From an uncultured Opitutia bacterium (GTDB lineage Bacteria; Verrucomicrobiota; Verrucomicrobiia; Opitutales; UBA953), in NCBI GenBank assembly GCA_903855995.1, contig CAIOAN010000002.1, positions 186,001 through 250,000 of the forward strand: a stretch of DNA of 64,000 nucleotides. The letters are read 5' to 3'. Within the stretch, counting starts at the first letter, position 1. Each line of letters starts with the position of its first letter. The position numbers and the translations under genes were made by a program. Below the pieces are notes generated by a model that worked only from the letters and a program-made list of their open reading frames with translations, ran no database searches and was not told the origin of the DNA. Below, piece after piece: positions 4,263 to 12,492 of this stretch.

Positions 4263-6440
4263 TCACTTCAGCGGACAACCGGCCAGGAGTTCGCCGGGGG
4301 CGTCTTTCCAGGCAAGTCTGACGAAAGGCACGCGGCCGAGTTTTGCGATGGTGGTCGAAATCTCCGTCAGTGAGTCGGCATTGTAACCAGGGTAGGCTTT
4401 GGCGATTTTGCCGCCGGGGGCGACGACGGTGACGTAGACGCTACGCTTAGCACCATAAGCGTCGATGACGGCGAAGTGCGGATCAGCGACAACCGGGAAG
4501 CCTGGCTTCACCGCGGCCGCCCACTCCTTGGCGCCGGCTTCGTCGGTATTGATCACGCCGACCACGGAACAGCTGGCTCCGTAGGCGGCCTGAAGCTGCG
4601 AAAGATACGGCGCAGCGTCACGCGAGCACGGACATTCCTTCTCGATAAAGAACAGGACGACAGGTCTGGTCTTCGCGAGGTCGGCGAGCACGAGCTGGTT
4701 ACCGGCGCCGTCAATCTTGACGAAGTCTACCGCGGGCCTCGAAGCCTGCGAGGCCGTGGCGACGATCTCTGCGGCGGGCAATGGGTGCTTCGTCTGCGCG
4801 CGGAAGTTGATCATACCCTTGGCGTCCTTCTTCACCGCGGCGGGATCCTTTGAGACGATGAACTGCCCCATCATGCCGCCGTCCTCGTGGTTCGACATAT
4901 GGCAGTGGAACATGAACGGGTCGGTGTCGCTGGCATAATCATCGAACTTGGCGACGAACGTGACCGCCGCGCCCCGTGGCAGGTAGAAGGTGTCCTTCCA
5001 GCCTTTCTCATATTCGGCGATCTCCCGATCGGTCCGTGAAAGCAGCCGGAACTGCACGTCGTGCAGGTGGAACGAGTGTCCGAAGATATTATTGTTGCGG
5101 ATGGTCCAGACCTCCGTGGCGCCGAGCTTCACGACCATGTTCGTGGAGTGCATGTCGAACGGCTTGCCATCGAAGGCGAAGTGCGGACGGCCGTCGGTCA
5201 CGCTGAGCGTGCGCTTGGTCGTGGCCTCCTTCTCGCTGACGAACACGTTGCGCGTCAGAATCTCAGGCACCTTGGTGATGGCTTTGGCCGTCGGAGCGAT
5301 GACATTGATATGCAGCAGGCGGTAATCGTAATTATTAAGGAAGCTGCCGTTGGCTCCGCCGGTGTCGGGCTCGCCGCCGGGGAAGCCGAACGTCTGATTA
5401 GAATTATAAGCCATCAGGTCGACCGTGCCACCGACCTTATCCGCACCGAGGTCGACGAGGATCTCGGTACGCTCGCCGACCATGAGCGTCAGGCGCTTGA
5501 GCGGGACCGGCTTGTCGACCAGCCCGCCGTCGGTGGCGATCTGGTAGAAGACGCGGTTATCACTGAAGCCTAGGACGTAGCCACGCTCGATTTCCGCATT
5601 GAGAATGCGCAGGCGAACCAGCTGACGGGGGAGCTTCGTCTGGGCGTCGAGCGTACCATTGGTCAGCTGGTAATCGCCGTATTTATCATCATCCCCCGCA
5701 TAGGTGAATTGATTGTCTTTAAAGCGCCGGCTCGTGAGCACGATCGGCAGGTCGTCGACGCCGTAGGTGCGCGGCAAGGCTAGCTTTGCTTCAACCGGAT
5801 CGCGGATGATGATCAGGCCGCCCGCCCCCAGCGCCAACTGCTTCTGGGTGAACTCGTGCAGGTGCGGGTGATACCAATAAGTGCCCGCATTATTCCTCAC
5901 CACGAAGGATGGTGACCAAGTCTTGCCCGCCGCGACGATCTGATGCGGACCGCCATCGGTGGCCGCCGGCAGGTGCAAGCCGTGCCAATGAACCGTCGTG
6001 GCCTCCTTCAGTTCATTCTTCACGTTCATCGTGACCGTCTCGCCTTGATTGAGAATCAAAGTAGGTCCCCAAAAATTCTGCTGGTTGTATCCGTACGTAT
6101 GGGTGGTGCCTTCGAGGAATTTCTTGGTGTTCTGACCAAGTGTGAGATTGAATGTCTTACCTTCGAGTACGGGCGGAATCCAAAGTTCCTGCAGCGGACG
6201 ATTATTGACCGGACGGGCTTTGTTGCCTCCGCCACCAGGCCCCTTCCCCTTGCCCTTGCCACTGGGGCGATCGCCCGGAGGGCCGTCGGGGCGGGGCGGA
6301 CGATCACCGCCTGGACCTTCGCCGTCACGACGGGGCGGACGTTCATCCGGCTGATCGGACTTCGGAGCGCCTTGAGCAAAGAGCGCAGCGGCCATGAGGG
6401 ACGAAGCGACTAACAGGAGGAGGTGACGGAACCAGGACAT
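4263..6440 (-). CDS. Multicopper oxidase fused to a thioredoxin-like domain
   Basis: 725 residues with a signal peptide, then a Pro/Gly/Arg/Lys-rich low-complexity linker (residues about 25-75), then three cupredoxin domains. Copper ligands are all visible: TVHWHGLHLP and YWYHPHLHE in the first domain, HSFHLHDVQ and FMFHCHMSNHEDGGMM in the third; the last contains the type 1 Cys and the axial Met. After the oxidase, residues about 570-725 form a separate redoxin/thioredoxin-like domain (VVLFFIEKECPCSRDAAPYL, then VVGVINTDEAGAKEW and FPVVADPHFAVIDAYG). The product is probably periplasmic and may oxidise metals or phenolics with O2. The fusion is unusual; whether the CPC cysteines are redox-active is unknown. 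Confidence 0.9.
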   Translation of the reverse strand: MSWFRHLLLLVASSLMAAALFAQGAPKSDQPDERPPRRDGEGPGGDRPPRPDGPPGDRPSGKGKGKGPGGGGNKARPVNNRPLQELWIPPVLEGKTFNLTLGQNTKKFLEGTTHTYGYNQQNFWGPTLILNQGETVTMNVKNELKEATTVHWHGLHLPAATDGGPHQIVAAGKTWSPSFVVRNNAGTYWYHPHLHEFTQKQLALGAGGLIIIRDPVEAKLALPRTYGVDDLPIVLTSRRFKDNQFTYAGDDDKYGDYQLTNGTLDAQTKLPRQLVRLRILNAEIERGYVLGFSDNRVFYQIATDGGLVDKPVPLKRLTLMVGERTEILVDLGADKVGGTVDLMAYNSNQTFGFPGGEPDTGGANGSFLNNYDYRLLHINVIAPTAKAITKVPEILTRNVFVSEKEATTKRTLSVTDGRPHFAFDGKPFDMHSTNMVVKLGATEVWTIRNNNIFGHSFHLHDVQFRLLSRTDREIAEYEKGWKDTFYLPRGAAVTFVAKFDDYASDTDPFMFHCHMSNHEDGGMMGQFIVSKDPAAVKKDAKGMINFRAQTKHPLPAAEIVATASQASRPAVDFVKIDGAGNQLVLADLAKTRPVVLFFIEKECPCSRDAAPYLSQLQAAYGASCSVVGVINTDEAGAKEWAAAVKPGFPVVADPHFAVIDAYGAKRSVYVTVVAPGGKIAKAYPGYNADSLTEISTTIAKLGRVPFVRLAWKDAPGELLAGCPLK

Positions 6441-6548: not shown

Positions 6549-7409
6549 ATGCGTTCCCTTGCTTTCCTGCTTTTGCTCGGCGTCTCCCACCTAGGCGCCG
6601 AATCCGCCCCCATCGCCTTACCCTTGTGGAATGGCGACGCACCCGAAGGAGACGGCAAATTCTCCGAGTCTTCCAAGGCCAAGCTCACCGTCCATCTACC
6701 TGAAATACTCACCACCGGCGCCGCCATCGTCATCTGCCCCGGAGGCGGCTACGGCGGCCTGGTGACCAAAGGCGAAGGCCACGGCATCGCGACGTGGCTG
6801 AATGCCCACGGCATCGCTGGCATCGTCCTTGAATACCGCCTTCCTGCCGGGCGGCCCTACGTACCGCTGCTCGATGCTCAGCAGGCAATCCGCACCGTGC
6901 GCGCAAATGCGAAACATTGGAAGATTGACCCGAAGAAAGTCGGCATCATCGGCTTCTCTGCCGGCGGGCACCTCGCATCGACCGCCACCGTACACTTCGA
7001 CACCGTCGAGACACGCGCCCCCAACGCCGTCACTGGCCAGAGTAGCCGACCCGACTTCTCGATTCTCATCTACCCCGTCATCAGCATGGAAGAAGGCGTC
7101 CACCGTGGCTCTAAAAAGAATCTCATGGGTGAGAACCCTGCGGCAGGCCTCTCGGATTATTTCTCGTCACAGAAGCACGTGCAGGACAACACCCCGCCGG
7201 CGTTCCTCGCCCATGCGCTCGACGACAAGGTCGTGCCGATCGAGAACAGCCGCATGTTCTACGAGGCAGAGAAGGCGCACAATCTACCGACCCGCCTCCT
7301 CGAGCTGCCCAACGGCGGTCACGGCCTCAACGGCTACAAGGGCCCATCCTGGGACAAATGGCAGGCCGAATCGCTCCTTTGGCTCAAGGAAATCAAGGTC
7401 CTCCCTTGA
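6549..7409 (+). CDS. Exported alpha/beta-hydrolase (esterase-like), copy A
   Basis: 286 residues: signal peptide (MRSLAFLLLLGVSHLGA), then an alpha/beta-hydrolase of the BD-FAE/acetyl-esterase type. The oxyanion-hole region reads VICPGGGYGG, the nucleophile elbow GFSAGGHLAS (about residue 137), an acid residue is likely in HALDDKVVP and the catalytic His in NGGHGLNGYKG near the C terminus. It probably removes acetyl or other ester groups from plant or algal polysaccharide. The next gene is a close paralogue whose mature part is highly similar, and the similarity extends past the stop codon. The signal peptide differs from that of copy B. Confidence 0.88.
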   Translation: MRSLAFLLLLGVSHLGAESAPIALPLWNGDAPEGDGKFSESSKAKLTVHLPEILTTGAAIVICPGGGYGGLVTKGEGHGIATWLNAHGIAGIVLEYRLPAGRPYVPLLDAQQAIRTVRANAKHWKIDPKKVGIIGFSAGGHLASTATVHFDTVETRAPNAVTGQSSRPDFSILIYPVISMEEGVHRGSKKNLMGENPAAGLSDYFSSQKHVQDNTPPAFLAHALDDKVVPIENSRMFYEAEKAHNLPTRLLELPNGGHGLNGYKGPSWDKWQAESLLWLKEIKVLP

Positions 7410-7451
7410 CCTCGATTAAGGACTTCAAATCGCATTATTAATCCGATCCCC

Positions 7452-8306
7452 ATGAAGTCCCTGCTCCTCGCCCTACTCACCACGGCCGTCGCCGCCGAAG
7501 GTATTCCTCCTTCGCAACCCCTATGGAAGGGCGACGCACCCGAAGGTGACGGTAAGTTTTCCGACTCAAGCAAAGCAAAACTCACCGTGTACCTGGCAGA
7601 AAAGCCTAACGGCGCCGCGGCCGTCATCTGCCCCGGTGGCGGCTACGGCGGCTTGAACATCGGCGGCGAAGGCCACGGGGTCGCGACCTGGCTGAATGCC
7701 CACGGCATCACCGGTATCGTCCTAGAGTACCGACTGCCCAAAGGCCGCCCTTACGTCCCCCTCCTCGACGCGCAACAAGCCATCCGCACGGCTCGCGCCA
7801 ACGCTACAGCTTGGAAAATCGATTCGAAGAAAGTCGGTATCATCGGTTTTTCCTGTGGCGGCCACCTCGCCTCGACCGCCACGGTCCACTTCGACACCAT
7901 CGAGACCCGTGCCCCCAGCGCCATCACCGGACAGAGCAGCCGACCTGATTTCTCCATCATGATCTACCCGGTCATCACCATGGACGAAGGCGTGCAGCAC
8001 GTCGGGTCAAAGAAGAACCTGATGGGTGAAAACCCCACTGCCGAACTCATCGCATATTTTTGCAGCCCCAAACAGGTCAAAGACGACACCCCGCCCGCCT
8101 TCCTCGCCCATGCGCTCGATGACAAGTCCGTATCCATCGAGAACAGCCGCATGTTCTACGCGGCCCAGCAGAAAGCTGGCCTGCCCACCCGCCTCATCGA
8201 GCTCCCTAATGGCGGCCACGGCCTCAACGGCTATAAGGGTCCGTCCTGGGACAAGTGGCAGGCCGAAGCCCTCCTTTGGCTGAAGGAAATCAAGGTCCTG
8301 CCCTGA
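7452..8306 (+). CDS. Exported alpha/beta-hydrolase (esterase-like), copy B
   Basis: 284 residues, tandem paralogue of the preceding gene. The serine elbow is GFSCGGHLAS instead of GFSAGGHLAS; the oxyanion region VICPGGGYGG, the acid loop HALDDKSVS and the His segment NGGHGLNGYKG are kept, so it should be active. Its signal peptide (MKSLLLALLTTAVAA) is unlike that of copy A but nearly identical at DNA level to that of the DUF1080 gene just downstream, which suggests how the duplication arose. The gap to copy A is 42 bases and the gap to DUF1080 is 56 bases, so the three are probably one transcript ending at the terminator at 9034. Confidence 0.88.
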   Translation: MKSLLLALLTTAVAAEGIPPSQPLWKGDAPEGDGKFSDSSKAKLTVYLAEKPNGAAAVICPGGGYGGLNIGGEGHGVATWLNAHGITGIVLEYRLPKGRPYVPLLDAQQAIRTARANATAWKIDSKKVGIIGFSCGGHLASTATVHFDTIETRAPSAITGQSSRPDFSIMIYPVITMDEGVQHVGSKKNLMGENPTAELIAYFCSPKQVKDDTPPAFLAHALDDKSVSIENSRMFYAAQQKAGLPTRLIELPNGGHGLNGYKGPSWDKWQAEALLWLKEIKVLP

Positions 8307-9070: not shown

Positions 9071-9865
9071 TTATTCGCCGAGCTTGATCCGCAGGCCGTC
9101 GTAGCACAGGCCGACCTTCGGGTGCTGCTTCTGCAGCTGAGCGGTATAAGTATCGAAGTTGATCTGATACGTCATGTGCGTAATCAATGCACGCTTGGCC
9201 TTCAAATCATGCGCGGCTTGGCAGGCCTCATCGATCGTCATGTGCGTCGGGTGAGGATTCGGACGCAGGCCGTCGAGAATGGCAAGGTCGGCGCCTTCGC
9301 CTAATTCCAGCGAGCGCTCTGTCATGCCCTTGCAGTCGGTGTAATAGGCGAACCGCATGCCCGTCGACGGCTCTTCGAAGACCAGACCGAGCGTGGATTC
9401 GTGGCCGTGCGGCAAAAGCGTCGAATACACGATACCGCCGCCCGGCAGGACCAATCGGGGCGGCATCAGATTGAGGTCTAAGGAAACGTAACCCGAGGCC
9501 TGCGGCTTACCCACGGCGTAAGGGAAGATAGCCTTGATACGCTGCAGCCCGATCTCCGTCGAATACACCGGGATGGCCGCGCCACCCTTATTTGTGCAGA
9601 ACTGGCGGAGATCGTCCATGCCGAGGACGTGGTCAGCATGCCCATGGGTCAGGATGAACGTGTCGACCTCGCGCACATCGTACTTGAGGCACTGCGTCCG
9701 GAATTCGGGCGCGGCATCGACCTGCACATGATGGCCCTCGATGACGACGTGCACGCTGGTCCGGGCGCGCCAGTTGCGCGGATCCTTTAGGTCGAGGCCT
9801 GGATTGTCATGGGCGGGCAAGGGACAGCCCTGCGACGTGCCGCAACCCATGATGAGGATTTCCAT
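9071..9865 (-). CDS. MBL-fold metallo-hydrolase, PhnP-like
   Basis: 264 residues from the ATG at 9865; a TTG three codons further out is possible but less likely. Begins MEILIMGCGTSQGCPLP, typical of the PhnP branch of metallo-beta-lactamase-fold phosphodiesterases, followed by VQVDAAPEF and the metal motif THGHADHVLGMDDLR, with later ligands likely at LLPHGHES, YYTDCKG and ALITHMTY. Such enzymes hydrolyse cyclic phosphodiesters such as phosphoribosyl cyclic phosphate. The gene begins 39 bases after the stop of the Rrf2-family regulator on the same strand, so the two are likely co-transcribed. No other phn genes are nearby, so a phosphonate role is not supported. Confidence 0.85.
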   Translation of the reverse strand: MEILIMGCGTSQGCPLPAHDNPGLDLKDPRNWRARTSVHVVIEGHHVQVDAAPEFRTQCLKYDVREVDTFILTHGHADHVLGMDDLRQFCTNKGGAAIPVYSTEIGLQRIKAIFPYAVGKPQASGYVSLDLNLMPPRLVLPGGGIVYSTLLPHGHESTLGLVFEEPSTGMRFAYYTDCKGMTERSLELGEGADLAILDGLRPNPHPTHMTIDEACQAAHDLKAKRALITHMTYQINFDTYTAQLQKQHPKVGLCYDGLRIKLGE

Positions 9866-9904
9866 GCGGCCCAACGTGGACGGACCGGAGGAAAAGACAA
9901 GCGG

Positions 9905-10339
9905 TCAACCCAGCAACGTCTTCATCAGGCGGGCCCGGTGCGGACCGTTGACGGTGTCGTGTAAGGTATGTCGGTCGAGCACAGCGTAAAATTCCCGGAG
10001 CGCCTGACCAACGATACCCTTCAGCTGACAACTCCCGTTGATCGGGCAGGTATTGGTCGCTGGGTCGAAGCATTCGAGGATCGCGGGTTGCTCCTCCGTT
10101 TCACGGACTAAGCGGCCGATGCGGATTTCTTGGGGTGTCCGGGCTAGCGTGATACCGCCATTCCGACCACGCCGGGTCTCAAGGTACCCCAATTGAGCCA
10201 GACGCTGTACCACTTTGGCCAGGTGATGCCGGGAAATCCCGTAGGCCTTCGTCACTTCATCTAGCTGGAAAGACTCCCCCTTGAGCGCCCCATACATGAG
10301 CACCCGAAGGGAGTAATCACTGAAAAGGCTCAGCTTCAT
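9905..10339 (-). CDS. Rrf2-family regulator, NsrR-like Fe-S sensor
   Basis: 144 residues from the ATG at 10339 (MKLSLFSDYSLRVLMYG, the family's usual opening); a 16-residue longer form from 10387 is possible. A winged helix-turn-helix is visible (FQLDEVTKAYGISRHHLAKVVQRLAQLGYLETRRGRNGGI) and then ECFDPATNTCPINGSC, three cysteines spaced C-x7-C-x5-C as in the cluster-binding loop of NsrR-type nitric-oxide sensors. NsrR represses NO-detoxification genes until its cluster is nitrosylated. Here the divergent neighbour is a truncated globin and a long palindrome covers the shared promoter (10402-10426), matching that model. IscR-like or other Rrf2 function cannot be excluded. Confidence 0.85.
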   Translation of the reverse strand: MKLSLFSDYSLRVLMYGALKGESFQLDEVTKAYGISRHHLAKVVQRLAQLGYLETRRGRNGGITLARTPQEIRIGRLVRETEEQPAILECFDPATNTCPINGSCQLKGIVGQALREFYAVLDRHTLHDTVNGPHRARLMKTLLG

Positions 10340-10401
10340 CAGGCCGCCCCAGCCTGCCCCCTCCGAAAGCCGAGTCAAGGGCCCCATTAGACCCTTGCCT
10401 T

Positions 10402-10426
10402 AAACAAGTATTTATAATACTTGTTT
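10402..10426. promoter_or_regulatory. Palindromic operator over divergent promoters (NsrR-type)
   Basis: Perfect 11-base arms AAACAAGTATT (10402-10412) and AATACTTGTTT (10416-10426) flank a TAT spacer. Counted differently it is an 11-1-11 palindrome with one mismatch, the geometry of known NsrR sites. A perfect -10 hexamer TATAAT for the globin gene lies at its centre (10413-10418), and TATAAA-like sequence reads out the other way toward the regulator. A protein bound here would block both promoters. The site lies 16 bases before the preferred globin start. Confidence 0.75.
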
Positions 10427-10441
10427 ATGTCTACCCATCCC

Positions 10442-10960
10442 ATGCGTTCTCCCTCCCTCCTCCTCGCCCTCTTCGCGGTGCTGTTCCTGACCGGCTGCGG
10501 CCAGAAAGCCTCCGTCACGTATGTCTACGAAGACGTCACTTACTCCTTCGCGGATGAGCCTGCTCGCGCCCAGTTCCAAGCCGAACGTGAAAAGAGTCTC
10601 TATTACCGACTGGGTGGCAAGGCGGCCGTCGAGGCAGCGGTGGATAAATTCTACGTCAAGGTCTTGGCCGATAAGCGTATCAATCACTTCTTCGAAGACG
10701 TTAATATGACGACCCAGCACCGTAAACAGAAAGCCTTCCTCTCCGCCGCTTTCGGCAGCCCAGTCGTCTGGAAGGGTAAGGACATGCGTCGTGCCCATGA
10801 AGATCTCAAACTGACGGAGGCCCACTTCAACGCGGTCGCCGAAGACCTGCAGAAGACGCTCGAGGAAATGAAAGTACCGCAGCCTCTCATCGGCGAAGTA
10901 ATGACCATCGCGGCCAGCACCAAAGACGCCGTCCTTAACCGTAAGCCAGCGGGCAAGTAA
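10442..10960 (+). CDS. Lipoprotein truncated haemoglobin (group I type)
   Basis: 172 residues from the ATG at 10442, chosen because it opens a lipoprotein signal peptide ([19 protein letters not shown], lipobox LTGC); an ATG at 10427 would add five residues. After a 30-residue linker comes a truncated globin: [23 protein letters not shown] (helices A-B), [10 protein letters not shown], then [14 protein letters not shown], where the first His is the likely proximal haem ligand. Group I globins bind O2 and NO and can oxidise NO to nitrate. An exported, lipid-anchored globin is uncommon. It faces the NsrR-like gene across a palindromic operator, which supports a nitrosative-stress role. A terminator follows at 10977. 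Confidence 0.88.
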
Positions 10961-10976
10961 GCGAGCCAGCACTGGG

Positions 10977-11010
10977 AAAGCCGCGATGCCCTTGGGTTCG
11001 CGGCTTTTTT
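10977..11010 (+). terminator. Terminator after the globin gene
   Basis: Stem GCCGCGA (10980-10986) / TCGCGGC (10998-11004) with flanking A-run and six Ts. Confidence 0.88.
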
Positions 11011-11103
11011 GTGCCTTCAAGCCCTTCCCACCCCTACCCATGGCCCGAATGGCCGTTCCTCACTCTTGCCACCCGCCGTCCCGTCCGTTCTCCTTCCCCT
11101 CCC

Positions 11104-12492
11104 GTGTTCGCCAACCTCACCGACAAACTCACCAAGGCCCTTCGTGACCTCCGAGGGCTCTCCAAGCTCTCCGAGGAGAACATCGCCCCGGCGCTCACCG
11201 AGGTGCGATCGGCGCTGATGTCCGCCGACGTCAATTTCAAGGTCGCCAAGGATTTCACCGAACGCGTCAAGGCCGCCTGCCTGGGCCAGGCGGTCATCGA
11301 GTCCGTCAACCCAGGCCAGATGGCCGTCAAAATCGTGTCCGACGAGCTCACGAAGCTCCTTGGCGAAGGCGAACGTCCAATCGACCCTCGCCGCCCACTG
11401 CGCGTGTTGCTCGTCGGCCTCCAGGGTTCCGGCAAGACCACCAGTGCCGCCAAGCTCGCCAAGCACCTCGTGAAGAAGGAAGGCGTCCGTAAGCCCTCCC
11501 TCGTCGCCGCGGACTTACGCCGTCCGGCCGCCATCGACCAGCTCGAGACCCTCGCCAAGATCGAAGGCTTCGATTTCCGCGCCGACCGCGCCGCGACCGA
11601 CGTCGCCGCCATGGTGGGCCGTCTGGTCAAGGAAGCCGAAGCCGCCGCCGCGGACCTTGTCATCGTCGACACCGCCGGCCGCCTGCAGATTGACGGCGAC
11701 CTGATGGAGGAAGTCCGCCGCGTGCGTGACGCCTTCCAGCCGCACGAGGTCTTCCTCGTCGCCGACGCCGCCCTCGGCCAACAGGCCGTCGACGTGGCCG
11801 CCAAGTTTCACGAATCCACGCCTCTCACGGGTATCATCCTGACCAAGCTGGACGGCGATGCCCGCGGCGGTGCGGCGTTGTCGATGAAGTCCGTCACGGG
11901 CGTCCCAATCCGCTACATGGGCACGGGCGAGAAGTCCTCGGACTTCGACACCTTCCACCCGGACCGCATGGCCCAGCGTATCCTGGGCATGGGCGACGTC
12001 GTCTCCCTCGTCGAGAAGGCTCAGGAGGTCGTCGACCACAAGGAAGCCGAACGCCTGGCCGAGAAGATGAAGAAGGCAGACTTCGACCTCGAAGACTTCC
12101 TCTCGCAGATGCAGCAGATGAAGAAGATGGGGCCGCTCGGCGACATCATGAAAATGATGCCCGGCATGGGTAACATCCAGGTCGGTGCCAAGGAGGAGAA
12201 ACAGCTTTCAAAAACCGAGGCCATCGTGCTCTCGATGACTAAGAAGGAGCGTCGCAATCCCGACATCCTCAACGGCTCCCGCCGCCTGCGCATCGCCAAG
12301 GGCTCCGGCACCCAGGTCAGCGACGTCAACGCGCTGATCAAGCAATTCTCCCAAATGCGCGAGATGATGCGCATGATGAAGGGCGGCAAGGGTAAGGAAC
12401 TCATGCGTCGCATGGGCCAGATGGGCGGCGGCCGCGGCGGCATGCCTGGTGGCGGCGGCTTTTCCGGCGGCGGTTTCCCAGGAATGCGCTGA
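11104..12492 (+). CDS. ffh: Signal recognition particle protein Ffh
   Basis: The frame opens earlier, but the GTG at 11104 gives [18 protein letters not shown], the standard Ffh N terminus, and a 462-residue protein of normal length. Domains in order: N domain (1-95), G domain with P-loop GLQGSGKTT near residue 105, DTAGRLQ near 190 and [10 protein letters not shown] near 248, then the Met-rich M domain ([26 protein letters not shown] onward) that binds 4.5S RNA and signal sequences. The tail after residue 430 is Gly/Met-rich. Directs inner-membrane proteins to FtsY and SecYEG. An HAD gene follows 5 bases downstream. Confidence 0.97.

Follow-up and report, generated by a model that had tools for sequence, protein, structure and literature searches.

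Within the window, the whole stretch of 64 000 nucleotides that was analysed here, a gene for an Rrf2-family regulator and a gene for a truncated globin stand back to back with a palindrome in the gap between them. The question raised by this locus is whether the regulator is of the NsrR type and, acting through the palindrome, controls a globin that deals with nitric oxide (NO). An earlier note on the same DNA had proposed self-repression of the regulator, NO-induced expression of the globin, a −10 hexamer built into the palindrome and coexpression of an MBL-fold hydrolase with the regulator. The reading favoured here, to which a probability of about 0.72 was assigned, is that the unit is an NsrR-controlled NO response in which an exported globin would remove NO. 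The features of the locus are listed in Table 1.

Table 1. Features of the regulator–globin locus, in window coordinates.
Feature	Position	Strand	Evidence
MBL-fold hydrolase, 39 bp downstream of the regulator, judged to lie outside the module	9071..9865	−	Present in 43/57 genomes
Rrf2-family regulator, NsrR-like, 144 amino acids	9905..10339	−	Pfam, translation, alignment to NsrR 5n07
Cys90, Cys98 and Cys104 codons (C-x7-C-x5-C), predicted [Fe-S] ligands	10028..10072	−	Translation, 5n07 alignment
Asp8 codon, counterpart of the Streptomyces NsrR cluster ligand Asp8	10316..10318	−	5n07 alignment; PMC9338935 (accessible part)
Putative NsrR-type operator TAAACAAGTATT-TAT-AATACTTGTTTA, half-site CAAGTAT, N5, ATACTTG	10401..10427		Perfect arms, conservation in sister loci
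TATAAT at the palindrome centre, weakly supported candidate for the globin −10	10413..10418	+	Sequence; variable in sister loci; no −35
Predicted exported group 1 truncated globin, 172 amino acids, alternative start 10427	10442..10960	+	Pfam, alignments, models
Lipobox Leu-Thr-Gly-Cys of a putative lipoprotein signal peptide	10487..10498	+	Read by eye
N-terminal beta-beta-alpha module, probable YHS-like remnant	10514..10594	+	AlphaFold2; outgroup comparison
Globin domain with haem-pocket residues	10595..10936	+	Pfam PF01152; cyanoglobin alignment

Regulator

That an Rrf2 regulator diverges from a truncated globin was confirmed by Pfam for both families, the Rrf2 domain being matched with E = 1.5e-29 and the Bac_globin domain (PF01152) with E = 2.6e-17. 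The regulator scored 94.1 bits with the rrf2_super model, above its cut-off of 73.3, as a member of the Rrf2 winged-helix family. Its start is most likely 10339 rather than 10387; the N-terminus M-K-L-S-L-F-S-D8 aligns with NsrR 5n07 from residue 1. Among solved structures NsrR 5n07 was the best match (E = 2.3e-22; best non-NsrR entry 8.1e-7), far ahead of IscR, CymR and RsrR, and Asp8 and the three cysteines, the predicted cluster ligands, align with those of 5n07.

The scores with the NCBIfam equivalog models remained below the cut-offs for both NsrR (107.7 bits, cut-off 182 bits) and RirA (112.8 bits, cut-off 193), with RirA slightly higher. A Planococcus regulator encoded beside Hmp (flavohaemoglobin) also failed with the NsrR model (124.0 bits) and also scored higher with RirA, which indicates that the NsrR equivalog model is narrow and that the two models do not separate the two types here. 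For the regulators of loci L045, L107 and L007 the NsrR model outscored that of RirA.

Asp8 was found in 56 of the 72 regulators that were compared; the remaining 16 carry Asn8, and all come from records titled as alphaproteobacterial. Among these Asn8 regulators, L086 adjoins cytochrome bd subunit I (Pfam) and has the same C-x7-C-x5-C spacing. A cytochrome bd neighbour like that of L086 was also seen by eye in L089 and L098. The spacing is near-uniform (71/72), a figure that is partly a product of the search, since the peptide patterns used to find the loci spanned the cysteines. The earlier note had taken the spacing as a mark of NsrR; it is present, but, as L086 illustrates, it does not by itself discriminate NsrR from other [Fe-S] Rrf2 regulators. 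The regulator is NsrR-like and likely of the NsrR type, for which a cluster and NO sensing are predicted.

Palindrome and promoter

The palindrome was described in the earlier note as 25 bases with 11-base arms (10402–10426). It is real and slightly longer, with arms (10401–10412 and 10416–10427) of 12 nt that are 100% complementary and a 3-nt spacer, TAT. It was also said to lie exactly between the two genes, which does not hold: with the regulator starting at 10339 instead of at 10387, where the ORF opens, the palindrome is off centre and close to the globin, 14 bp being left to the start of the globin and 61 bp to that of the regulator. Four places in the 64-kb window have perfect arms of at least 12 nt and a spacer no longer than 10 (six entries, compared with a mean of 0.083 in 60 dinucleotide-shuffled windows). 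The other three places (about 1667, 9034 and 13242) are GC-rich with A/T runs alongside and look terminator-like by eye, and the palindrome studied here is the sole AT-rich one of that size. Shuffling of the 102-bp gap gave such a palindrome in 0 of 20 000 cases, and a terminator scan of 9850–11050 detected none.

The idea of a conserved palindrome accompanying the divergent pair was checked in relatives and survived. In six sister loci (seven aligned rows with the window) the arms are kept, with 10–12 of 13 symmetric positions paired, and the centre varies. Seven MBL–ffh gaps that lack the pair contain no palindrome above 7/11.

The hexamer TATAAT is present at the centre, but its role as a conserved −10 element was not borne out. 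The exact hexamer occurs in one of the seven aligned rows, that of the window; the six sister rows read TAGAAT, TACAAT, TAAAAT, TTAAAT or TCATAT. Three of its bases (AAT) belong to the palindrome arm, and neither a sigma-70 pair nor a −35 partner passed the scan of 9850–11050. TATAAT was therefore rejected as a demonstrated built-in promoter; it may still act as the −10 of the globin.

The sites were scored against the published NsrR consensus gATGyAT-N5-ATrCATc (PMC1274295, accessible part). The window site and the six sister sites reach just 10/14 because of their half-site CAAGTAT, a match that is weak alone (equalled by 12 of 500 shuffles for the window and by 4 to 18 of 500 across window and sisters). 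Outgroup sites scored 14/14 in L045, 13/14 in L043, L048 and L107, and 12/14 in L049, L110 and L007, the last with no globin beside it; these seven were equalled by 0 or 1 of 500 shuffles. A 12–14/14 site was present in 7 of the 18 gaps scored. The pair loci L046, L047 and L108 gave no clear consensus site (26, 60 and 172 of 500 shuffles, respectively, equalled the observed score), and L069 has a 10/14 site (11/500 shuffles). Counted from the centre by hand, C+6 and T+10 are kept in the window site; both bases are discussed for the ScNsrR complex in the accessible part of PMC9338935. A scan of the window's own genome with a degenerate pattern and three mismatches returned two further sites besides the known one, and the control gave one match per strand; in view of the control matches a second operator target is not claimed, and weaker sites may have escaped.

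A possible covariation between recognition helix and half-site was seen when L163, L166, L169, L181, L185 and L188 were compared with L165, L170, L182 and the window (the helix of L181 was not cleanly read): SLNH goes with AGGTAT, SKHH with GAAGTAT and SRHH with CAAGTAT (window). The SRHH helix was also found with ATG-type sites (L049, L107), which speaks against strict covariation.

Globin

Globin residues were numbered from the ATG at 10427, although the conserved start is 10442; the ATG at 10427 occurs in the window and L037 alone among the seven aligned rows. In profile searches the top matches were to cyanoglobin (E = 1.6e-42). The best Foldseek match of the window globin model was 1dly, on which the L045 globin model was superposed with Z 21.8 and rmsd 0.9 over 120 residues; Foldseek and VIA-align put group 1 truncated globins first, in agreement with a group 1 2/2 fold. 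Across 13 rows Tyr76, Gln97, Gln101 and His124 do not vary, and Lys100 hardly does. In helix notation these residues are B10 (Tyr76), E7 (Gln97), E10 (Lys100), E11 (Gln101) and F8 (His124), so that the proximal histidine, the B10 tyrosine and a distal glutamine of group 1 truncated haemoglobins are all present.

The globin is very likely exported, as judged from signals read by eye; Leu-Thr-Gly-Cys was taken as a lipoprotein signal by the lipobox rule. Downstream of it, AlphaFold2 predicted two strands (30–34 and 37–41) and a helix (44–56). By eye the outgroup globins carry a Sec-type signal, after which comes a module CP[IV][ST]GKPxxPxITxxYEGxTYAF, usually with a later Cys; in the window genus the beta-beta-alpha core is kept and the CPISGK segment and the later Cys are missing. 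Six of eight outgroup modules matched Pfam YHS (PF04945) at E 0.1 or better, the best (24.1 bits, E = 3.6e-5) staying below the gathering score of 30.3 bits. With hhalign the outgroup modules matched three YHS segments of the window's genome (one over the Pfam cut-off, one below it and one recognized by eye) at 89.9% over 26 columns. A PDB sequence search with the N-terminal module returned nothing relevant and in the fold searches the globin domain took up the matches, so that the link to YHS is one of sequence. We therefore describe the outgroup globins as probable exported fusions with a module that is labelled YHS-like and no more, and the module of the window globin as a probable remnant of a YHS-like domain that has lost its cysteines. 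Across the phylum, 15 of 387 genomes gave a match to the globin alignment at 1e-8, and only three matches, the window included, cover the N-terminus. No reductase gene was seen beside the globin.

Regulator–globin pair in relatives

Among the 69 loci found by the regulator, 15 have a globin match, which lies upstream on the opposite strand in 14 (L037–L043, L045–L049, L069 and L075) and on the same strand in L055. Where the regulator is most similar (57% or more; 18 loci, L037–L054), the globin is present in 12 loci and absent from six. L040 and L041 are near-identical and were counted as one lineage; L006, in which regulator and globin share a strand, was excluded from alignments A1 and A3. 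The other full-length globins found in the 387 genomes of the phylum, L107 and L108, have an Rrf2 gene upstream on the opposite strand with one gene between.

More distant regulators adjoin RIC, Hmp, NnrS, a NosZ-propeller protein and a truncated haemoglobin (trHb) plus reductase. Nine regulator neighbours were scanned, among which that of L051 was a methyltransferase, that of L086 cytochrome bd and that of L056 gave nothing; as they were picked by eye, they show that NO genes occur there and not how often. In L050, L051, L053 and L054 a thiopurine-methyltransferase-like gene lies upstream of the NsrR-like regulator and there is no globin (Pfam TPMT was obtained for L051 only). The window's genome gave no match to the Hmp-type globin family (PF00042); it encodes two COX1 proteins, one of which matches ccoN below the cut-off.

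Globin-led search

In a separate search, loci of another family in the same class were chosen by the globin alignment regardless of any regulator. At 1e-50 the alignment matched 35 of 68 genomes at 45 places, and 30 loci were examined, one per genome (L107 and L108 were re-encountered as L160 and L163). All 30 carry CP[IV][STN]GK in the N-terminal module. A consensus site of at least 12/14 was present within 250 bp upstream of the script-chosen start in 19 of the 30; the 250 bp that follow the gene gave one in 0/30, and shuffled sequences in 13/3000. The 30 loci are not independent, 25 of them coming from one genus. An Rrf2 gene was matched in the examined flanks of 11/30 loci, and for 15 of the 19 site-bearing globins there was none in these flanks. 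Of the 11 loci without a site, seven have a regulator further off and four have neither site nor Rrf2 gene. In six of those seven another globin-like gene lies between, and a 9–11/11 palindrome with an AGGTAT half-site was found, post hoc, next to the regulator.

Two or three copies of the YHS-globin are present in 7/35 genomes, and a second globin, labelled group III-like by eye, lies near the YHS-globin in 19/30 loci. It stands between regulator and YHS-globin in L163, L166, L169, L181, L185 and L188; in L168, L171, L173–L178, L180, L184 and L186 it lies upstream in divergent orientation, and an NsrR-consensus site separates it from the YHS-globin. In Pfam the second globin of L108 matched Bac_globin (6.4e-5) and that of L056 gave no match at 1e-3; neither matched an NCBIfam model.

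Gene neighbourhood and exchange

The pair is flanked by a core gene on either side, the MBL hydrolase and ffh. Homologues of the MBL hydrolase were identified in 43 of the 57 genomes examined, the window's own among them, and the regulator is mostly absent from these genomes; the outgroup loci L043–L105 gave no MBL match. The proposal that it is coexpressed as part of the system was given up on these grounds.

The full-length regulator or pair occurs in 4 of 37 genomes of the genus, many of which are incomplete; a fifth (G029) has a piece of the regulator where a contig ends. In the four genomes with the full pair, it lies in the gap between MBL and ffh. In seven other loci MBL and ffh face each other with 123–268 bp between them and no pair, and the gap is about 740 bp with another insert in four (L127, L129, L132 and L135). 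In nine further loci the two genes are on one strand about 1.65 kb apart. These distances were taken between the starts of tblastn matches, and the remaining loci had no ffh in the flanks. The inserts of L127 and L132 encode the same short protein, which by eye resembles the 23S rRNA intervening-sequence family. The MBL–ffh gap (9866–11106 in the window) behaves as an insertion spot; in L040 and L041 the pair is present among different neighbours.

Over 9837–11141 the window and L037 show five differences in about 1300 bases, one of them at 10415 in the operator centre (TATAAT to TAGAAT), and the flanks are more diverged. L038 is a mosaic. The near-identity within diverged flanks and the mosaic indicate that the pair block was exchanged by recombination, and on this comparison repressor, operator and globin are one unit that is exchanged as a block.

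Elsewhere in the window, 4263–6440 (−) encodes a CueO-like multicopper oxidase that carries an AhpC/TSA thioredoxin-fold domain as a C-terminal fusion. Two tandem related genes, 6549–7409 (+) and 7452–8306 (+), encode what by eye are exported alpha/beta hydrolases, and the hydrolase-like tandem (6549–8306) is followed by a gene for a protein with a 3-keto-disaccharide hydrolase domain.

Discussion

The type of the regulator, the operator, its conservation and its occurrence upstream of globins with no adjacent regulator are supported by sequence comparison. NO induction of an exported globin, as the earlier note had proposed, is made probable by the combination of an NsrR-like regulator, a putative NsrR-type operator and a divergent globin that is very likely exported. 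In the absence of NO a dimer of the [Fe-S] NsrR-like protein would sit on 10401–10427, which ends 14 bp before the start codon of the globin, and would block transcription of the globin and probably that of its own gene. NO would attack the cluster, the repressor would be released and the globin would be made, exported and anchored as a lipoprotein. Its haem, outside the cytoplasm, would most likely remove NO, by dioxygenation to nitrate while O2 is present, and NO would thus be met at the envelope. In this scheme the presence of a cluster, its response to NO, repression by the regulator, the loading of the globin with haem and the reaction itself are what we infer. NsrR-type repression of the globin through this site is likely. 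The removal of NO outside the cytoplasm, derived from regulator and fold, is probable, and self-repression of the regulator is plausible from the position of the operator.

Should the regulator respond to NO, the globin could nevertheless bind O2, relay haem or electrons, or act as an envelope peroxidase during nitrosative stress. The missing reductase neighbour, the redox or metal partner suggested by the YHS-like module and the cable-bacteria trHb–cytochrome fusions, proposed as oxidases in the accessible part of PMC11976967, would suit such a role; the targets of NsrR are mostly nitrosative-stress and denitrification genes (PMC1274295, accessible part), and the distal residues resemble those of NO-dioxygenating THB1, which leaves a function other than NO consumption as a rather unlikely one. 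It is less likely still that the regulator senses iron or the general redox state, as RirA or IscR do, with a globin responsive to iron or O2. The slight lead of the RirA model and the occurrence of the same cysteine spacing in L086, an Asn8 regulator next to cytochrome bd, point that way, and against it stand Asp8, the NsrR geometry of the operator and the lead of the NsrR model for L045, L107 and L007. As to the palindrome, an origin by chance or as a structural element (e.g. an RNA hairpin or terminator) and not as an operator would agree with its closeness to the globin start and with the long perfect terminator-like palindromes elsewhere in the window. The AT-rich arms, the negative terminator scan, the conserved position in the sisters, the absence from empty gaps and the consensus matches in the outgroups make this highly improbable. 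An NsrR-controlled, NO-removing exported globin is thus retained as the preferred reading.

To our knowledge, globins under NsrR control, Hmp among them, are cytoplasmic and have a reductase either as a domain or as a partner. In fold and haem-pocket pattern the globin resembles Chlamydomonas THB1, Synechocystis GlbN and Mycobacterium HbN, none of which, as far as we know, is exported or has a YHS-like N-terminus. The Gln and Lys three residues apart correspond to Gln50 and Lys53 of THB1, an algal protein reported as an efficient NO dioxygenase (PMC4439042). The comparisons in this and the following paragraph refer to the accessible parts of the cited papers. A truncated globin domain outside the cytoplasm is shared with the pentahaem cytochromes of cable bacteria (PMC11976967); there, unlike here, the trHb domains are fused to multihaem cytochromes and proposed to be oxidases, and no link to NsrR is described in that part of the paper.

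NsrR control of a glbN-type globin is already known from Legionella pneumophila, where the target is glbN-lpg2536, encoding a cyanoglobin and a hypothetical ferredoxin reductase (Rodionov et al., 2005; PMC1274295). There the globin is the sole predicted target, and the own-genome scan here similarly gave one convincing site. In contrast to the Legionella operon with its reductase partner, the present globin is probably exported, has a YHS-derived N-terminus and no adjacent reductase that could be seen, and is divergent from the regulator. NsrR of Streptomyces coelicolor targets hmpA1, hmpA2 and nsrR through a 23-bp site (PMC9338935), and has in common with the present system the Rrf2 fold, Asp8 and three cysteines, a 23-bp site and C+6/T+10. 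It differs in cysteine spacing (Cys93/99/105, C-x5-C-x5-C, versus C-x7-C-x5-C), in the half-site, which is CAAGTAT here, and in its targets, the globin here having no reductase domain. Genes for glbN were described in Verrucomicrobia MAGs of one microbial mat, in which nsrR was assigned to two other phyla only (PMC10866078).

The literature searched (without subscription papers and preprints) yielded no exported YHS-like globin controlled by NsrR and no paper on a YHS domain with a globin, hemoglobin or truncated hemoglobin. Among the matches listed, no title indicated a study of an NsrR regulon or of NsrR and a globin in Verrucomicrobia, and none was relevant to a truncated hemoglobin as a lipoprotein.

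The pair, together with the globins of relatives behind the same kind of site, suggests a little-noticed NO defence of the envelope. Somewhat tentatively, an extracytoplasmic NO defence of the Verrucomicrobiota can be envisaged in which an exported YHS-like and group 1 globin would be under NsrR, the half-site having drifted between lineages (GATGCAT, GAAGTAT, CAAGTAT, AGGTAT), perhaps with the recognition helix; the window genus would hold a lipoprotein version without the cysteines of the YHS module, passed from strain to strain as a block of repressor, operator and globin. If exported globins are indeed under NsrR control, the removal of NO would be placed in the envelope, and the question would arise of where the globin obtains haem and electrons and whether the YHS-like module is the answer. 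The operators found here can be used for the prediction of NsrR targets in Verrucomicrobiota.
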